Shown: positions 3,224 to 12,153 of the stretch, piece by piece
Numbering within the stretch: the stretch's first letter is position 1
How the letters are laid out: every line of letters begins with the position of its first letter
Virus record (IMG/VR): IMGVR_UViG_3300023278_002079
Span: 1 to 22,327 of that record
Length of the DNA: 22,327 nt
Origin: a virus
Reading direction: 5' to 3' (one strand)
Notes under the pieces: model-generated
The model's database searches: none
What the model was told of the DNA's origin: nothing
Seen by the model: the letters and a program-made list of their open reading frames with translations, nothing else
Made by a program: the position numbers and the translations under genes

Positions 3224-3259
3224 CAAATCACACAAATCACACAAATCACACAAATCACA
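3224..3259 (+). repeat. Tandem repeat leader, CAAATCACA x4
   Basis: Four perfect copies of the 9-base unit CAAATCACA fill the leader of the tail chaperone gene. The last A of the fourth copy is the A of its start codon. No SD site is present. The repeat is unlikely to fold and probably keeps the start accessible. Confidence 0.9.
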
Positions 3260-3675
3260 TGGATTCAGAAGATATTTTACTAGAGGCGGGAAGCAAGACC
3301 TGTGGACTTGAATTGAGGCCATTCACCTTCGGCACGCTGCAACTGTGCCGCAAGCTGGGTCTAGATATTTTCACAGGAGAGCGCGAGGCCACAGAGGGCG
3401 AGGACGGCGATTTTGATGGCGACAGCATTCAGCAGATACAGACATTCATCTGGATTCAGTCTCAGCCAATCAAGGATGTTCTACGCGCAGTCAAGGATGG
3501 CACTTGGGAGGACGAGGTTATGGAGTTCTCTTTCGGGCTGGAGCTGTCTGACATGAATGATATTATGTCATCAATTAACGAGATTGGTGACGTAGCATCC
3601 ACGGCGGTAGACGTTGTGGAGAAGCCACAGCAGGAATCCTCAAGCAGTGAAAGTCCTCCTCCCCCAAACTTATAA
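3259..3675 (+). CDS. Tail assembly chaperone, short form (lambda gpG-like)
   Basis: 138 residues, acidic, with a predicted alpha/beta body (SKTCGLELRPFTFGTLQLCRKLGLDIF) and a disordered Ser/Pro/Glu tail ending ESPPPPNL. This is the place and style of the short tail assembly chaperone that coats the tape measure protein during tail building. Its last codons contain the heptamer C CCA AAC and it stops at TAA 3673-3675, 6 bases later. A -1 shift there opens a second frame that runs to 3944. Gene order (chaperone pair, then a basic protein, then tape measure) supports the call. The sequence alone does not show the family by a catalytic motif. Confidence 0.78.
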   Translation: MDSEDILLEAGSKTCGLELRPFTFGTLQLCRKLGLDIFTGEREATEGEDGDFDGDSIQQIQTFIWIQSQPIKDVLRAVKDGTWEDEVMEFSFGLELSDMNDIMSSINEIGDVASTAVDVVEKPQQESSSSESPPPPNL

Positions 3676-3713
3676 AGCCAGCGTGGGGGGTCGCGTTCCT
3701 CTATTCGCTGGCT
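3663..3713 (+). promoter_or_regulatory. Programmed -1 ribosomal frameshift signal
   Basis: Slippery heptamer C CCA AAC at 3663-3669, in the correct zero-frame phase, then a 6-base spacer (3670-3675, containing most of the zero-frame stop), then an 8-base perfect stem: AGCCAGCG (3676-3683) with CGCTGGCT (3706-3713). This matches the X XXY YYZ plus spacer plus stem layout of -1 frameshift sites in tail chaperone genes. Confidence 0.82.
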
Positions 3714-3944
3714 GATGGCAGGCCAACCAAGGAGCAGGAGCACTGGATTATGTGGGAACTCCCGCTGATCCGCGCCTTATCCTATCACCATTGCGTCCTT
3801 GCGGCCAATGACGAGTGGACTGTGCCTCTTGGCGGAAAGGCTGATCTTGCCGTCAAGATGAACGATCAATATCAAGGCTTGGTGGATGCTTCTGAGGCTA
3901 TGTCTGACGAATGGGAGGGTGAGGGTGCGTTCGCTGACTTCTAG
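3669..3944 (+). CDS. Frameshift extension of tail assembly chaperone (gpGT-like T domain)
   Basis: This frame has no good start of its own at 3669. An ATG at 3750 exists, but coding character (LIKPAWGVAFLYSLADGRP, then EHWIMWELPLIRAL) begins well upstream of it, right at the shift site. Read as a -1 shift product, residues 1-137 of the short chaperone continue into 91 residues of this frame, giving a ~228-residue long form. In lambda the long form (gpGT) contacts the tail tube protein through the T part and the tape measure through the G part. The same arrangement is inferred here. The conserved Trp/aromatic run (HWIMWELPL) is typical of such T-like segments in phages. Confidence 0.8.
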   Translation, partial: LIKPAWGVAFLYSLADGRPTKEQEHWIMWELPLIRALSYHHCVLAANDEWTVPLGGKADLAVKMNDQYQGLVDASEAMSDEWEGEGAFADF

Positions 3945-3972: not shown

Positions 3973-4713
3973 ATGGCTGAGGAGAACTTACTCACACTCA
4001 AGAACGGTGCGGCGTGGGGCGCGGCCTTGGCTGTGGAATTAAAGCGACAGGTGAAGAAGAGCCAAGGGGAGGTTATGAGAGATTTCACTAAGAATCTCGT
4101 GTCGGAAATCATAGCATTAACGCCTCCACAGGCAGGTAAGCACCGCAGGGGCGTGGCTGCTAAGAAAAGGGGAGAGCGGACAACTGAGGTTCATATTCGC
4201 CGCGTATTTGAAGGCGTGACAAAGCGCAAGTTATCGCCCGCAAACCCATTGGCAACTGGAGCGCATACACAAAATCAGACGATTGCTTGGATGGCGGCTG
4301 CACACAAGAGAGCGCGTCGAAAGGGAAGGGTTGAGAGATCAAAGAGTCGCCACCGCCATAAGGTGATGAAGGGGCAGCTAAACAGATACATTCGTATGCG
4401 GAAGTCCAAGGTCGGCGCACTCGCCGCAGGGTGGCACGCAGCCGCAGATGAGTTTGGCGTCAGGGGCCGAAACTTCCCTGCGTGGATGAGGCGGCATCAG
4501 GGCAAGGTGGGCAGTAGTGCAAAAATTGTGATCCGTAAGGATAATATTCATATCAGGTTCTCCAACAGGGTTAGGTTCGCTGGTGATGTCGCAATTATGA
4601 AGCGCAGGCTGAGTTGGGCGATGGGAGTTCAGGCTGACAAGTCACTTCGCAAGAAGATGAGGAAGGGCTTAAAGGATGCCGTTAAGAGATCAAAGATTGT
4701 GGACTGGAAGTGA
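3973..4713 (+). CDS. Highly basic late protein before the tape measure gene, unknown
   Basis: 246 residues with many Lys and Arg, especially at residues ~55-145 (KHRRGVAAKKRGERT, HKRARRKGRVERSKSRHRHK) and the C-terminus (KSLRKKMRKGLKDAVKRSK). An N-terminal amphipathic helix is followed by LTPPQAGKHRRG. A central segment GALAAGWHAAADEFGV precedes a strand-rich part (AKIVIRKDNIHIRFSN). The layout recalls HK97 gp10-like minor tail/neck proteins, which have a helix, a TP-x-TG-LR-like turn and then strands, but the match is loose and the Lys/Arg content is unusual. Position between the chaperones and the tape measure gene suggests a tail component. Function not assigned. Confidence 0.7.
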   Translation: MAEENLLTLKNGAAWGAALAVELKRQVKKSQGEVMRDFTKNLVSEIIALTPPQAGKHRRGVAAKKRGERTTEVHIRRVFEGVTKRKLSPANPLATGAHTQNQTIAWMAAAHKRARRKGRVERSKSRHRHKVMKGQLNRYIRMRKSKVGALAAGWHAAADEFGVRGRNFPAWMRRHQGKVGSSAKIVIRKDNIHIRFSNRVRFAGDVAIMKRRLSWAMGVQADKSLRKKMRKGLKDAVKRSKIVDWK

Positions 4714-4745: not shown

Positions 4746-6545
4746 ATGGCCAATTCGCTTACCGCAGAGCTAAATCTGAACATCAGAAAGTTTACCGCCA
4801 AGCTCAATCGAGCAGAGCGGCAAGCCAAGTCTTTTGGTAGTAAGGGCGGTCGATCTGCTGGAAAAGCGATGGGCAAAGGTATTCGCGGCGGAGTCGCGGG
4901 GGCGATGCTGAGTATTTCCAAGACGATCACCAAGTCAATGGCTGCTATTGGACTTGCTGCGGGAGTAGTCTTCGCCAGAACCATCCAAAGGGCCGTCGCG
5001 GAGGCAGGGCAGGTGGAAGCCGCTGAAATGCGATTCAACATTCTCACCAGTGACGTGGAGAAGAGCAATAAGGTTCTAACCGTTCTGCGACAAACCGCCA
5101 TGCGAACGGGCATCACATTTGAGGCTATGGCAGGGAACGTAGGCAAGTTCATGGCGTTCGGATTCTCCCCAGAGAAAGCGATGGAGCTGAACAAAGGCAT
5201 TCTCGATGTGGGTGGTGCTGTGGGTATGACAAACACTGATATGAAGCTATTGGGTGTCGCTTTGTCTCAGGTTGCTGCCAAGGGTGTTGGCTCTATGGAG
5301 GAATTGAGGCAGCAGATTGCGGAGAAGGGAATCCCGATCTTCAAGGCACTGGAGGAGCAACTCGGTGTCACGGGAGCAGAGCTGAACAAGATGATTCAAG
5401 AGGGCAAGGTCAGCGCAGATGTTGTTCTAGGGTTGTTTACCGACGTGGCTAAGGGGAAAGGCCCGCTCAAAGACTTTGCTGGCGGTGCTGATAAGATGGC
5501 TACCACCTTCCAAGGTAAGGTGGGTAGAATGAGGGCGCATTGGGGTGAGTTCCTCAAGCGGTTCGGAGCACCTATAATTGAGGCACTCAAGCCGGTCATG
5601 GATGACTTGCTTGTGATTATGAAACGCATGATCCTTGATGCTGACTCATGGGGGTCGAGTATCGCTAATGCCATGTCCAAGATAGAGAATTTTACCAACC
5701 CTATTGCGACTATGGCAGATTCGCTTGATGGATTCTCGAAAGCGTGGGATGCCTTTGTTGACTATGCGGTTAGGTCTTTTGTGAATAAAATGATTACATT
5801 CTACGCGCTATTTAGGGTTCGCATGGAAAGCGAGATTGCGCTGTTAGGCATAAAGATTGTGGATGTCCTCACAACAGGCTTTCGCGATATGGATTTTTGG
5901 AGTGCTATTGTGATAGGTCAAGCGGAGTTCTTCTTAAATTTCACCGCATCGCTTACGAATGCAGCAACGGCATTCGTAAGGAAGATCGAGGAAGCCATCC
6001 CGCTCTTTGCTAAGCTGGAGCTTGGCGATAAAATGCAGGCCGGAGCAGAGTCGCTCGCAAGCGGGGCCGAGATTGCTGGGGATTTAAGTCAAGGATTTGA
6101 GGACGCATACAAGGGCAGGCAGCTTGAGAGAGCGTCTGTGAGAAGTCAAATCAATGATAAGGTCATTGAACAGATCAGGAGTGCTATAAATGGCCTAGAT
6201 TTGGCCGATGCCACGGGTAGCAGGAGACGACTTGAGGAAGTCCTAAAAGGCTTGACCAGCCGCCCTCGTGAGGAGGAGGAAAAGATGGGTCCAGCCGAGG
6301 ATGATAAGCCAACAGCTCCTAGTCCTGCGGCTTTCGCTGGACCCATGCTAAATGGGAGAGTGGACCAGATGAACAACGCCATAATGGGTCGCAGCGCGTT
6401 TTCCATTATTGCTATCGAGGCGCAGAAAGCCACGGCGCAGAGAGATAAAACGAACACACTGCTACAAGGCATCAAGGACGAGCTAATGGCAGAAAGCGAT
6501 GCTGAGTTCGTTGGTCCGCCAGCCTCTCTGAGTCAATTTGCTTAA
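4746..6545 (+). CDS. Tail tape measure protein
   Basis: 599 residues. It sets tail length and serves as scaffold for tail tube assembly, and is usually passed into the host at infection. Residues ~90-270 match the common tape measure N-terminal domain: EAAEMRFNILTSDVEKS, then GGAVGMTNTDMKLLGVALSQV, GSMEELRQQIAEKGIPIFKAL and FQGKVGRMRAHWGEFLKRFG. The first 60 residues are basic and helical (KLNRAERQAKSFGSKGG). A hydrophobic Ala/Gly segment sits near 65-80 (MAAIGLAAGVVFA), with further hydrophobic helices near 340-420. The C-terminal ~130 residues are polar, with a Pro/Glu-rich linker. The length is modest, implying a rather short siphovirus tail. The coding sequence contains a perfect 11-base hairpin at 5952-5980. 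Confidence 0.92.
   Translation: MANSLTAELNLNIRKFTAKLNRAERQAKSFGSKGGRSAGKAMGKGIRGGVAGAMLSISKTITKSMAAIGLAAGVVFARTIQRAVAEAGQVEAAEMRFNILTSDVEKSNKVLTVLRQTAMRTGITFEAMAGNVGKFMAFGFSPEKAMELNKGILDVGGAVGMTNTDMKLLGVALSQVAAKGVGSMEELRQQIAEKGIPIFKALEEQLGVTGAELNKMIQEGKVSADVVLGLFTDVAKGKGPLKDFAGGADKMATTFQGKVGRMRAHWGEFLKRFGAPIIEALKPVMDDLLVIMKRMILDADSWGSSIANAMSKIENFTNPIATMADSLDGFSKAWDAFVDYAVRSFVNKMITFYALFRVRMESEIALLGIKIVDVLTTGFRDMDFWSAIVIGQAEFFLNFTASLTNAATAFVRKIEEAIPLFAKLELGDKMQAGAESLASGAEIAGDLSQGFEDAYKGRQLERASVRSQINDKVIEQIRSAINGLDLADATGSRRRLEEVLKGLTSRPREEEEKMGPAEDDKPTAPSPAAFAGPMLNGRVDQMNNAIMGRSAFSIIAIEAQKATAQRDKTNTLLQGIKDELMAESDAEFVGPPASLSQFA
5952..5980 (+). repeat. Perfect 11-bp inverted repeat inside tape measure gene
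   Basis: CTTACGAATGC (5952-5962) and GCATTCGTAAG (5970-5980) are exact reverse complements around a 7-base loop. No T-run follows, so it is not an ordinary terminator. Confidence 0.85.
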
Positions 6546-7366: not shown

Positions 7367-8050
7367 ATGCCAAACATTCCGCGAGAGCTAAGGGTTAGAA
7401 GGGGCGACGACATCTCTAAGGCATTACGTGCGCTAGTGAGGTACGCTGAGGCCGCAGAGGTTTATACGTCCAGCAACGACAAAGACCTCAAGGTGACGCG
7501 CAAGAGCCAAGGCACATTGGTTAGCGCAAAGTTTGAAAAAAACTCATTCCTTCACCCATTTAAGATTAGGGGTGACATCAATGGATTTAGCGTATCCGAA
7601 GGGTCCGTTAATGGCGCAACGCCGTTCATCAAGGGCAGCGATGATAAATCAGTTTCAATCAGTGGCTATGATGAAAACGGTGAATTAGTTCAAGTTCCTA
7701 AGATCAAGGTGAAGAAGGAATCTGATGCCCTCAAGACTTACATTGCGATCAAGGTCACTATGTTTGCTGGTGGTGAGGCCGGAATAACAGAATCGCCAGA
7801 TTCACTCAGCGTGGTCCACGTCGAGGATTTATCTAATCGCTTTGCGCAGGGTGGTAGTCCGGTTCAGGAGGGTAACGATAGCAATGATCGCGTTGCTTAC
7901 TACCCATTAGCCAAGCTCTACTGGTCAAAGGATGGTGCATTCTTGAAGTTTCGCCAAATTGTCCATCACAATCTCAACCACCGATACGTGGCTGGCGGGA
8001 CCAATGCCGAGGGAAACGCGGCGGAACGCCACTACTTTTGGGCGGCATGA
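7367..8050 (+). CDS. Tail-tip/baseplate-type structural protein, unknown family
   Basis: 227 residues with a basic N-terminus (MPNIPRELRVRRGDD) and a strand-rich body (GDINGFSVSEGSVNGATPF, DKSVSISGYDENGELVQVPKIKV). The C-terminal part, SLSVVHVEDLSNRF then AKLYWSKDGAFLKFRQIVHH, looks like a receptor or beta-sandwich region. A plausible SD site (GGGAG, about 9 bases before the ATG) is present, rare for this region. Its stop TGA (8048-8050) overlaps the next ATG (8047) in an ATGA, so the two genes are translationally coupled. The HNLNH near its end resembles HNLFWNLNH in the next protein. Confidence 0.72.
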   Translation: MPNIPRELRVRRGDDISKALRALVRYAEAAEVYTSSNDKDLKVTRKSQGTLVSAKFEKNSFLHPFKIRGDINGFSVSEGSVNGATPFIKGSDDKSVSISGYDENGELVQVPKIKVKKESDALKTYIAIKVTMFAGGEAGITESPDSLSVVHVEDLSNRFAQGGSPVQEGNDSNDRVAYYPLAKLYWSKDGAFLKFRQIVHHNLNHRYVAGGTNAEGNAAERHYFWAA

Positions 8051-9433: not shown

Positions 9434-9472
9434 ATGTATAGGCTTCAGCCTACCACGCTCAATATCGCATGA
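9434..9472 (+). CDS. Possible 12-codon leader ORF before the fibre gene
   Basis: ATG at 9434 encodes MYRLQPTTLNIA and its TGA (9470-9472) overlaps the fibre gene ATG at 9469 in an ATGA. A TTGAC box (9418-9422) lies 16 bases before it. It may be a coupling leader for the large fibre gene, which has no SD site of its own. Too short to support by coding statistics. Confidence 0.3.
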   Translation: MYRLQPTTLNIA

Positions 9473-12153
9473 ATACAAAAGGCTACCTTGATCTCTCTAC
9501 AGGGCAACTTTCCTCCACGCTAGGCGGCTCCGACATACAGTTCCCCAAGTTGCCCTTCGGGACAGAGGTTACGCTGGGGTTGAGGCTTTCCGAGCAGATT
9601 GAAGGACAGAGCGTTGAAGCTAATCGGACCGTCGACTCGTTCCGCGCTTCCGTTGGTCGTATTGACACCCGCCCAGAGTCGGGATCATTTAACCTAGAGG
9701 TCGGAATCGAAGCCACTCCAGACGTTACAGCGAACCTGACTTACGACGCCACCGCCCAAGAGGTTCAAGACGCAATTAACGCCATCTCATCGGCGCAGAT
9801 GACCGCTCTAGGTGCTGCGACCGTAGAGCTTCTCGATGAGAGCTTTATCGTCACTTTCGCGAACGAGACGACAGCCAGCTACGCGCAGCCGACAGAGATC
9901 ACCATTTACGACGAAAACAGCCTATTCCCCGTGTCCTTCCTGCGATCACGCGCATCGCGATTCAATGCCAAGTGGAGGCACGATCTGAGACTAATTCAGG
10001 CTCCGGTGGCAAGCACGAGCACCCTGACTACTAAGTTGCCTGACCCACCTTATGTCACGGAGGACATCGCCGGTTCTGACACGGGAGTTGGAGGCACGCT
10101 AACTCCTGAAATTCAAATTCTCCACGTTCCTCGCGACTTTCGCGCAGGATACCAACTCAAGCGCAACAGCATCCATAGCAACACTCTGACCCGCGCAGAC
10201 GGCGTAGGTCAGATTGAGGAGGCATTAGCACCACTCGCCGACGAGGGGGGAATCTTTAGGGTCGAGCAAGGATTGGATGGTCAGGCTTTGATCTCGTTTG
10301 AGGGCGAGATGGCTGGAATTGACCAAGACTTGATTGAGGTCGTGGTAGTAGGAGATGACTCTGGATACCTTACTTTCACGCTAGACTTCAATACTGCTGA
10401 ACTGGCTGCGCTGATGCGTGACGCTGAGGACGGTGAAATCACCCTCCCTTTCGAAATCGAAATGGAGATTGAAGACCCTGATAACGCGGCAATCACATAT
10501 AATCGCAAGGTTCATTCCAGCACACTTACACTTATTCGCACGCTTAATTGGGACGGGTTAGCCTCAGCCGCCAATGTGGACTGGCTGCGACCACCTATTG
10601 ATGAGGTCTACGGAGGTTTCGACTACAGCCAAGTCAGTAACGGACAACTACACTATTCCGACACAGTGGGTGATGGCGTGGCTACTACGTTCGTTGTCGA
10701 TCACAACCTCGACGTGAATGCTCATAACGTAATCGTTAAGCAAGTCTCTACGGGTAATCTGCTTGTCCTTGGGACTGATTTCTCGGTCACGGAGACAAGC
10801 AGCAACTCCCTCACTGTCACGGCCCTCTCAGGTGCTCCCGCGAGCGGTGACTGGCGCGTTACCGTTCTCGGCCTTGAGCTTACTAGTTTCTTCGACCCTC
10901 ATACCCACCCTATCTCTGACATCATTGGCTTGCAGGCCATTCTCGATGACTTGGGGCAGCGTTTGACAGACTTAGAGGATCGCACTGGCACTGGCACTAT
11001 AAAGGGAACCGACGACGACGGAGGGCAAGCGGCTCATTGGCAACTTCCACCGCTTTTTGAGGTATTCCCTAGTCGCGTGGCAATTCCCGATCCTAGCACG
11101 CGACTCGTTGATCTCGACACTTCTCAACTAGGGCGACCTCGCGGGCTTCTCGCCGCCGTGCACGATGCGCAAGTTGAAGACTTGCCGAGCACTGTGCCAA
11201 CCCCAGCGAGCGAATATGTCGGGCGCGTGTTTGAGAACAACACGGGCGGCACCGTACTGCTCACGGGCGGCAAGGGTATTCGATCAGCTCGACTAGACGA
11301 CGGCGGCTTCGCGGCTTGCGACGGGCGGCTTTGGTATCAGGTCGAGCGATACGGCGAGCACGCGAGTCCGGTTGAATTTACAACCGACTTCGCAAGCGAC
11401 GAAAATCAACTTGCGGCGACCGACAACGAATTTCCAGACGGCACGATTGTCACGGTGAACTCGACCGATACGCCGCCAGCACCGCTTGTTGCGGGCAGCG
11501 ATTACGAAGTGATAAATCGTGAAGATGATGCCATTGAACTCACGAGCGTAGGCGGCTCGACCCCGATTGCTCTCACCGATGATGGTGTCGGCACTCACAC
11601 TATTACCAAGAAAGCCGAAACGTCATACTATCCGAAGGCATTTGAGCGCGAGCTATTTCAGCTCCCCGTGAATGATCGACAACTTCGACTCAAGAGCCGC
11701 TTTGAGCTTCGTTTCGCGCTTGAACTCGCCGTGCTGAAGAGCAACACCGCCGCGCAATGGGCTGTTGCGATTGAAGTCGGCGAAAAGACGACTCTTGAAA
11801 CACCTTCAAAGACCGGTAAAAATATCGAGTCGATTGTATGGCGCGGAACGCCATTGCTTGAGCAAGCGATTGTCATTTCACCGATTTCGACGGTGCATAG
11901 GTTTGGCATGGTAGTCGAGCGCAAGCTCGTCGATGAAATCGACACTCTAACCGCAACGAGTCTCTTCTATGGCACGACCGAAGCGACGGTCGCACCGAAG
12001 AGCGCAAACTTCATTCTGCGTGCTCGCTTGATCCGATTTGACACTGAAGACGGTCAGAGCGATCCAAGCGGCTTTACTGCAATCAAGGGATTTACTATAG
12101 AAACTCCGGGCGTTCAAACGCCAGCAAGTGAGGGAACAGCATTCATTAACTAA
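9469..12153 (+). CDS. Large multidomain tail fibre/appendage protein
   Basis: 894 residues, beta-rich and acidic, with no signal or membrane segment. Several phage-fibre-type modules can be seen in order. Residues ~395-470 form a domain with VDHNLDVNAHNVIVKQV and a closing ASGDWRVTVLG, common in fibre and appendage proteins. Residues ~476-490 hold DPHTHPISDIIGLQ, the HTH-type segment found in phage fibre/collar proteins, followed by a helix (LDDLGQRLTDLEDR). Residues ~635-715 form a beta domain running from FTTDFASD through PLVAGSDYEVIN to GVGTHTITKK, a module found in many phage structural proteins. It is probably an adhesion or appendage protein. Codon use changes at about 11,090-12,060, suggesting a swapped-in C-terminal module. 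Confidence 0.8.
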   Translation: MNTKGYLDLSTGQLSSTLGGSDIQFPKLPFGTEVTLGLRLSEQIEGQSVEANRTVDSFRASVGRIDTRPESGSFNLEVGIEATPDVTANLTYDATAQEVQDAINAISSAQMTALGAATVELLDESFIVTFANETTASYAQPTEITIYDENSLFPVSFLRSRASRFNAKWRHDLRLIQAPVASTSTLTTKLPDPPYVTEDIAGSDTGVGGTLTPEIQILHVPRDFRAGYQLKRNSIHSNTLTRADGVGQIEEALAPLADEGGIFRVEQGLDGQALISFEGEMAGIDQDLIEVVVVGDDSGYLTFTLDFNTAELAALMRDAEDGEITLPFEIEMEIEDPDNAAITYNRKVHSSTLTLIRTLNWDGLASAANVDWLRPPIDEVYGGFDYSQVSNGQLHYSDTVGDGVATTFVVDHNLDVNAHNVIVKQVSTGNLLVLGTDFSVTETSSNSLTVTALSGAPASGDWRVTVLGLELTSFFDPHTHPISDIIGLQAILDDLGQRLTDLEDRTGTGTIKGTDDDGGQAAHWQLPPLFEVFPSRVAIPDPSTRLVDLDTSQLGRPRGLLAAVHDAQVEDLPSTVPTPASEYVGRVFENNTGGTVLLTGGKGIRSARLDDGGFAACDGRLWYQVERYGEHASPVEFTTDFASDENQLAATDNEFPDGTIVTVNSTDTPPAPLVAGSDYEVINREDDAIELTSVGGSTPIALTDDGVGTHTITKKAETSYYPKAFERELFQLPVNDRQLRLKSRFELRFALELAVLKSNTAAQWAVAIEVGEKTTLETPSKTGKNIESIVWRGTPLLEQAIVISPISTVHRFGMVVERKLVDEIDTLTATSLFYGTTEATVAPKSANFILRARLIRFDTEDGQSDPSGFTAIKGFTIETPGVQTPASEGTAFIN

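Follow-up and report, generated by a model that had tools for sequence, protein, structure and literature searches.

Bacteriophage lambda makes its tail-assembly proteins G and G-T from a short gene that precedes the tape measure gene, carries an in-frame X XXA AAZ heptamer close to its end, and is extended in the -1 frame; the way in which gpG and gpGT work has been described (PMC5009743, in the portion considered here). The window analyzed in this study, by which we mean the whole stretch of 22,327 bases of a virus record, shares this layout. Lambda slips on G GGA AAG, the heptamer of one clade of the family described below, whereas the window itself carries CCCAAAC. In further contrast to lambda, an additional gene precedes the tape measure gene here, the downstream stem is strongly kept where the last heptamer base (Z) is C or A, and no homology to named chaperones was found by family and fold searches (as distinct from a direct gpG alignment). 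The g-t frameshifts in the portion of PMC5009743 considered here likewise include heptamers with Z = C and an X that varies between G and A, but, unlike the window, there is no C_CCA_AAC among them. Insertion sequence (IS) elements likewise program their shifts with Z = C heptamers, A_AAA_AAC and G_GGA_AAC, that have low efficiency in Escherichia coli (PMC4066793, in the part available), yet the products there serve transposition instead of tail assembly. In the literature searched, a set to which the slip-site list of Xu et al. 2004 does not belong, CCCAAAC was not found described as a slip site that tail genes use in nature.

We consider it very probable that two tail-assembly genes of the lambda G/GT type, from a previously unrecognized protein family, are expressed at the window locus through programmed -1 ribosomal frameshifting. 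The evidence is sequence based and consists of the signal, its conservation and covariation, protein conservation in both reading frames, and a tape measure gene linked to the pair. While the frameshift device itself is well known, the protein family and the C-rich slip site are new, and notable features include the C-type heptamer, the directly adjacent stop codon, the exchange of one slip site for another at an unchanged position, and in-frame fusions of the two genes.

The slip signal and its gene neighborhood

The zero-frame, G-like gene of the window (3259-3675, plus strand, as are all window features given here) encodes 138 amino acids ending in PPPPNL, and the slippery heptamer C CCA AAC lies at 3663-3669 in the X_XXY_YYZ phase of this frame, with the -1 frame open across it. 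The heptamer is followed by the 6-nt spacer TTATAA (3670-3675), which holds the zero-frame stop TAA (3673-3675), and then by a stem whose 5' arm AGCCAGCG (3676-3683) pairs with its 3' arm CGCTGGCT (3706-3713) over 8 bp with no mismatch, enclosing a loop of 22 nt. Both arms were read in the sequence and recovered by RNA folding, and the structure lies within the range of 5-9 nt after the heptamer. The T-like -1 frame (3669-3944, stop TAG at 3942-3944) contributes 91 amino acids after the shift, giving a joined G-T product of 228 amino acids. The in-frame heptamer, the 6-base spacer, the perfect 8-base stem, the frame running to 3944, and a product of about 228 residues had all been given in a preliminary description and are correct to the base. 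Its further suggestion, that a G6 run and a CCTC in the loop could form extra pairs, agrees with the RNA fold, which predicts an inner hairpin extension at 3684-3703 with seven more pairs (3684-3690 with 3697-3703) and an apical loop at 3691-3696.

Most ribosomes would read 3259-3675 and end at TAA, yielding the 138-amino-acid G-like protein. A minority would be paused by the hairpin, 6 nt past the heptamer, while their tRNA-Pro and tRNA-Asn sit on CCA and AAC. Both tRNAs would then slip back in tandem by one base, to CCC and AAA, respectively, and these ribosomes would bypass the TAA and continue to 3944 to make the 228-amino-acid G-T protein. The slip itself is inferred. By analogy with lambda gpG and gpGT, G would coat the tape measure protein, and the rarer G-T would recruit the major tail protein. 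For chaperones of the lambda type, one expects G to outnumber GT by far and to be missing from the particle.

RNAfold gives -23.2 kcal/mol for 3670-3720 (z = -2.96 against 200 dinucleotide shuffles), and the folding-energy z is -4.3 against shuffles in which the T protein was kept and synonymous codons were redrawn; by bare pair count under the same synonymous-codon null, the window stem is not significant alone (P = 0.06). Across the 22 plus-strand open reading frames (ORFs) of the window, 8 of 5,740 codon positions carry an in-frame X_XXY_YYZ in which Y is A or T, and 30 of 5,740 have a perfect stem of at least 8 bp at a spacer of 4-10 nt. Conservation, rather than single-sequence chance, is what decides whether the signal is real. 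No Shine-Dalgarno-like stimulator, an element that is optional in bacteria, is present within 20 nt upstream of the window heptamer, and a conserved upstream stimulator of this kind was rejected as a family feature, as it was found in only 24 of 43 representatives and is absent from the window.

The G-T pair lies upstream of a 599-amino-acid tape measure protein gene (TMP_3, PF20155; 4746-6545) with one ORF intervening, a basic protein of 246 amino acids (3973-4713) that has no family match and has positional counterparts in loci L124, L127, and L153. The same arrangement is seen in prophage loci, and a tape measure gene lies downstream of G-T in three of them (Chthoniobacter flavus Ellin428, L124, and G238). 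No clear match to a tail tube family, as would identify a major tail protein, was found in the tested ORFs upstream of G-T.

G and T of the window have no match in PHROGs or Pfam, none of the 19 T-alignment members has a PHROG match, and PDB profiles compared with the tested proteins gave nothing below an E value of 0.4. The AlphaFold2 model of G is of middling confidence (pLDDT 71), and fold searches with it returned nothing convincing (best PDB Z score, 2.5; best BFVD hit, an unnamed phage protein at an E value of 0.024). The model of T (pLDDT 65.8, pTM 0.35) is too poor for a fold search. The name tail chaperone, which the preliminary description had already used, is consistent with gene order and frameshift design but finds no counterpart in Pfam, PHROGs, or the PDB, and the putative chaperone role is accordingly one that we draw from gene position and frameshift design, homology having gone undetected. 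That the frameshift is real but its product is something other than a tail chaperone is a reading to which the lack of homology to named chaperones and the extra gene between T and the tape measure gene would lend some weight. We regard it as unlikely, since a position just upstream of a tape measure gene recurs in the window and the three prophage loci, and a short G with a -1 extension is the design of tail chaperone genes.

Relatives and the position of the slip site

Close to moderate homologs were found on four viral contigs, one identical in G and T (L005, a record identical to the window over both genes), one at 98/99%, one at 78/81%, and one at 39% in G, and the in-frame CCCAAAC and the open -1 frame are kept in all four. 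Between the window and the 78% relative (L004), differences at the first, second, and third codon positions number 28, 10, and 67 in G and 12, 4, and 30 in T, while the stretch covering slip site and stem shows 6 differences in 56 nt. By this pattern both frames evolve as protein, with third positions taking most changes.

A wider scan with the T alignment gave 95 relatives, of which 80 were kept for analysis. In all 80 of these viral T loci, a heptamer of the form X XXA AAZ ends exactly at the start of T homology (in L080 the match begins at T residue 4, and the T start is extrapolated by three codons). The T query covers only sequence past the heptamer, so that the search did not select for its presence. 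The G scan returned 29 loci, comprising 17 on contigs with T loci, 11 on new contigs, and L036; all 11 new contigs carry a slippery heptamer, and L036 ends at the contig edge. In named genomes there are 17 loci, all of them from Verrucomicrobiota by title (the genera and families concerned belong to this phylum), including C. flavus Ellin428 and Verrucomicrobium sp. BvORR106, and 15 of these loci have a slippery heptamer. The window virus is a virus of Verrucomicrobiota bacteria. A first genome scan with the G alignment gave no match, and among 50,697 records of isolated phages, tblastn found nothing similar to G or T of the window or to the T proteins of L081 and L023.

Counting the window and its identical record L005, a heptamer is found at the homologous place in 107 of 109 G-T loci, namely GGGAAAG in 54, CCCAAAC in 29, GGGAAAC in 16, CCCAAAA in 5, and AAAAAAC in 3, with none in the remaining 2. 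The stop codon of G lies 1 or 4 nt past the heptamer in 105 of the 107 (the exceptions are L080 at 40 nt and L035 at 28 nt), whereas the mean stop-to-heptamer distance is 26 nt in one set of phages and 36 nt in another (PMC10885494, in the part consulted). Our results add an unrecognized, tail chaperone-like family in phages and proviruses of Verrucomicrobiota, whose hosts include two strains with records that are not marked as metagenome-assembled genomes (MAGs), Ellin428 and BvORR106.

These data also bear on whether T could be a separate gene, expressed from its own start or by coupling, with the heptamer incidental. An ATG at 3750 does open an ORF of 64 amino acids (3750-3944), but the family conserves T as protein ahead of this codon, starting with its first residue; the junction holds a slippery heptamer in all viral T loci and all new G-found loci; and three loci encode G-T as one chain. 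A separate T gene has, in our view, very little chance of being the correct explanation.

The downstream stem and slip efficiency

The helix common to the family, scored at a constant distance from the heptamer (nt 8-16 past it, paired with nt 35-43), corresponds to 3677-3685 with 3704-3712 in window coordinates. Among representatives with Z other than G, 22 of 24 form 6 to 9 of the 9 pairs (L042 and L080 form 2), and 9 GGGAAAG representatives form 3 to 5. Covariation was assessed in an ungapped alignment, not fitted to structure, of 24 sequences, which are the representatives with Z other than G minus L080 and plus L006. In this set 90.7% of cells are paired versus 80.4% after shuffling, and 24 cells are changed on both sides versus 6.5 (standard deviation [SD], 2.0), a count reached in none of 500 shuffles; controls in which the helix was slid have 29.2 to 44.4% of cells paired. 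The pairs that show a double change are not unusually numerous in themselves (5 versus 3.8; 113 of 500 shuffles), and RNAalifold recovers the same helix unaided. The preliminary description had looked to an alignment of the site in related phages, and what that alignment reveals is in its favor, as the heptamer is kept in nearly all G-T loci, and in the window's set the stem is kept with compensatory changes.

Against a null in which synonymous codons were redrawn, 33 representatives with Z = C or A had 8.09 of 9 pairs versus 6.02 (SD, 0.19; 0 of 2,000), and the 20 with CCCAAAC had 8.25 versus 6.06, whereas 10 with GGGAAAG fell below expectation (3.90 versus 5.00). Pairing where Z = C or A exceeds what protein constraint explains. 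Mean folding z scores against dinucleotide shuffles are -3.78 for CCCAAAC (14 sequences), -4.23 for GGGAAAC (6), -4.08 for CCCAAAA (2), -2.36 for AAAAAAC (2), and +0.18 for GGGAAAG (9). A heptamer without a clear stem is found in L042, L080, L136, L141, L143, L147, L148, and the whole GGGAAAG clade.

The kept stem also argues against the frame being shifted by transcriptional slippage rather than by the ribosome. The AAAAAAC of a few relatives could permit polymerase slippage, but the runs in the window are five C's and three A's, and those of the family are mostly CCC-AAA or GGG-AAA, which are short for slippage of this kind; we find this explanation scarcely credible. That the frame change reflects an assembly or sequencing error or a decaying gene, for which nothing beyond the frame change itself speaks, is refuted by third-position-biased change in both frames and by the recurrence of the frame change, always at this position, in over 100 loci drawn from many metagenomes and genomes, and can be dismissed.

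The rate of slipping may be set by tRNA modification. The preliminary description had called a C-run slip site less common and its efficiency informative. The C-run in itself is not weak, as C_CC.A_AA.G was the most efficient of 64 heptamers in E. coli, reaching 54% with the IS3 pseudoknot, while A_AA.A_AA.C and G_GG.A_AA.C were of low efficiency (PMC4066793, in the part available). It is the final C that is the low-efficiency feature; AAC in the A site belongs to the E. coli low-efficiency class and predicts a low efficiency. As heptamers with Z = C are of low efficiency in those data, a strong stem might be expected where a moderate rate is needed.

Changes of the slip site were traced on a tree of 43 representatives built without the last residues of G or the beginning of T, where the stem is encoded. 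The heptamer changed at least 10 times and the X triplet at least 9 times (among CCC, GGG, and AAA), always within a slippery heptamer, although weak deep branches and the very long branches of L080 and L136 make these counts approximate; strongly supported branches alone force 2 changes for CCCAAAC and 2 for GGGAAAC. GGGAAAG forms a single clade, so the link between Z = G and stem loss represents one event. A general rule that a weak heptamer needs a strong stem was set aside on this account, although it holds in the main family, and the distant Z = C loci L141, L143, L147, and L148, which have no strong stem, also speak against it. The same shift, kept with several heptamers and two stem states, provides a natural series for the tuning of slip site and stem to a required ratio.

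Distant loci, fused genes, and further observations

Of 387 genomes searched from the phylum to which Ellin428 belongs, 12 gave a match, Ellin428 included. Among the 11 distant loci, the heptamer is at the expected place in L141 and L143 (CCCAAAC), L146 (GGGAAAG), and L147 and L149 (AAAAAAC), while L144 and L145 have AAAAAAG 9 nt upstream of it, L142 is an in-frame fusion, and L150 and L151 are without a clear state. L148 has GGGAAAC and a kept T with no long G frame directly upstream and may be a copy that has been broken or rearranged.

Most surprising among our findings are the in-frame fusions. The two loci without a heptamer among the 109 are L124 and L127, both from the MAG SSF29, in which G and T share a single uninterrupted frame of 216 amino acids (L124, 1120-1770; L127, 998-1648) that is followed by a 217-amino-acid ORF and then by a 504-amino-acid ORF, the latter matching tape measure families in L124. 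No free G was found elsewhere in the SSF29 genome. In genome G238 (L142/L153), a diverged G-T fusion of 214 amino acids (L153, 3884-4528, minus strand) is followed by a 260-amino-acid ORF and a 582-amino-acid tape measure protein, and no other G was found in that genome. These fusions show that both parts can function within a single chain and that loci can abandon the shift. The fused loci could be gene transfer-like or inactive elements, and fused members would provide a test of the need for free G.

A bolder reading is tentative and less likely than not to hold. The slip site of the verrucomicrobial family would be selected for slipperiness itself, with the X triplet swapping wholesale among CCC, GGG, and AAA at a fixed place; slip strength at the last base would trade off with stem strength, the stem being lost where Z = G; and some proviruses would have dropped the shift and would build tails from a G-T fusion without free G, contrary to the rule that G must greatly outnumber GT.

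In Ellin428, the gene order is major head protein, head closure (a weak match), G-T, an ORF, and tape measure. Within L129 (5887-8524), the post-T gene and the tape measure gene are separated by a minus-strand ORF of 320 amino acids, and the tape measure coding sequence looks split over two frames; this prophage may be partly decayed.

Two other candidate slip sites in the window were rejected. A GGGAAAC at 8011-8017, near the end of ORF 7367-8050, is in frame, and the -1 frame runs from it without a stop into the gene that follows, but it is not kept in a 91%-identical relative and is therefore probably due to chance. An AAATTTC at 5936 would add only 23 residues in the -1 frame and has no counterpart in L003 or L004; it lies in frame in the tape measure gene and is followed 9 nt on by a perfect 11-bp hairpin, the two together spanning 5936-5980. 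No tRNA genes were found in the window. In the tail region, an ORF of 894 amino acids (9469-12153) has no Pfam match and a weak PHROG match to head decoration over residues 395-467.
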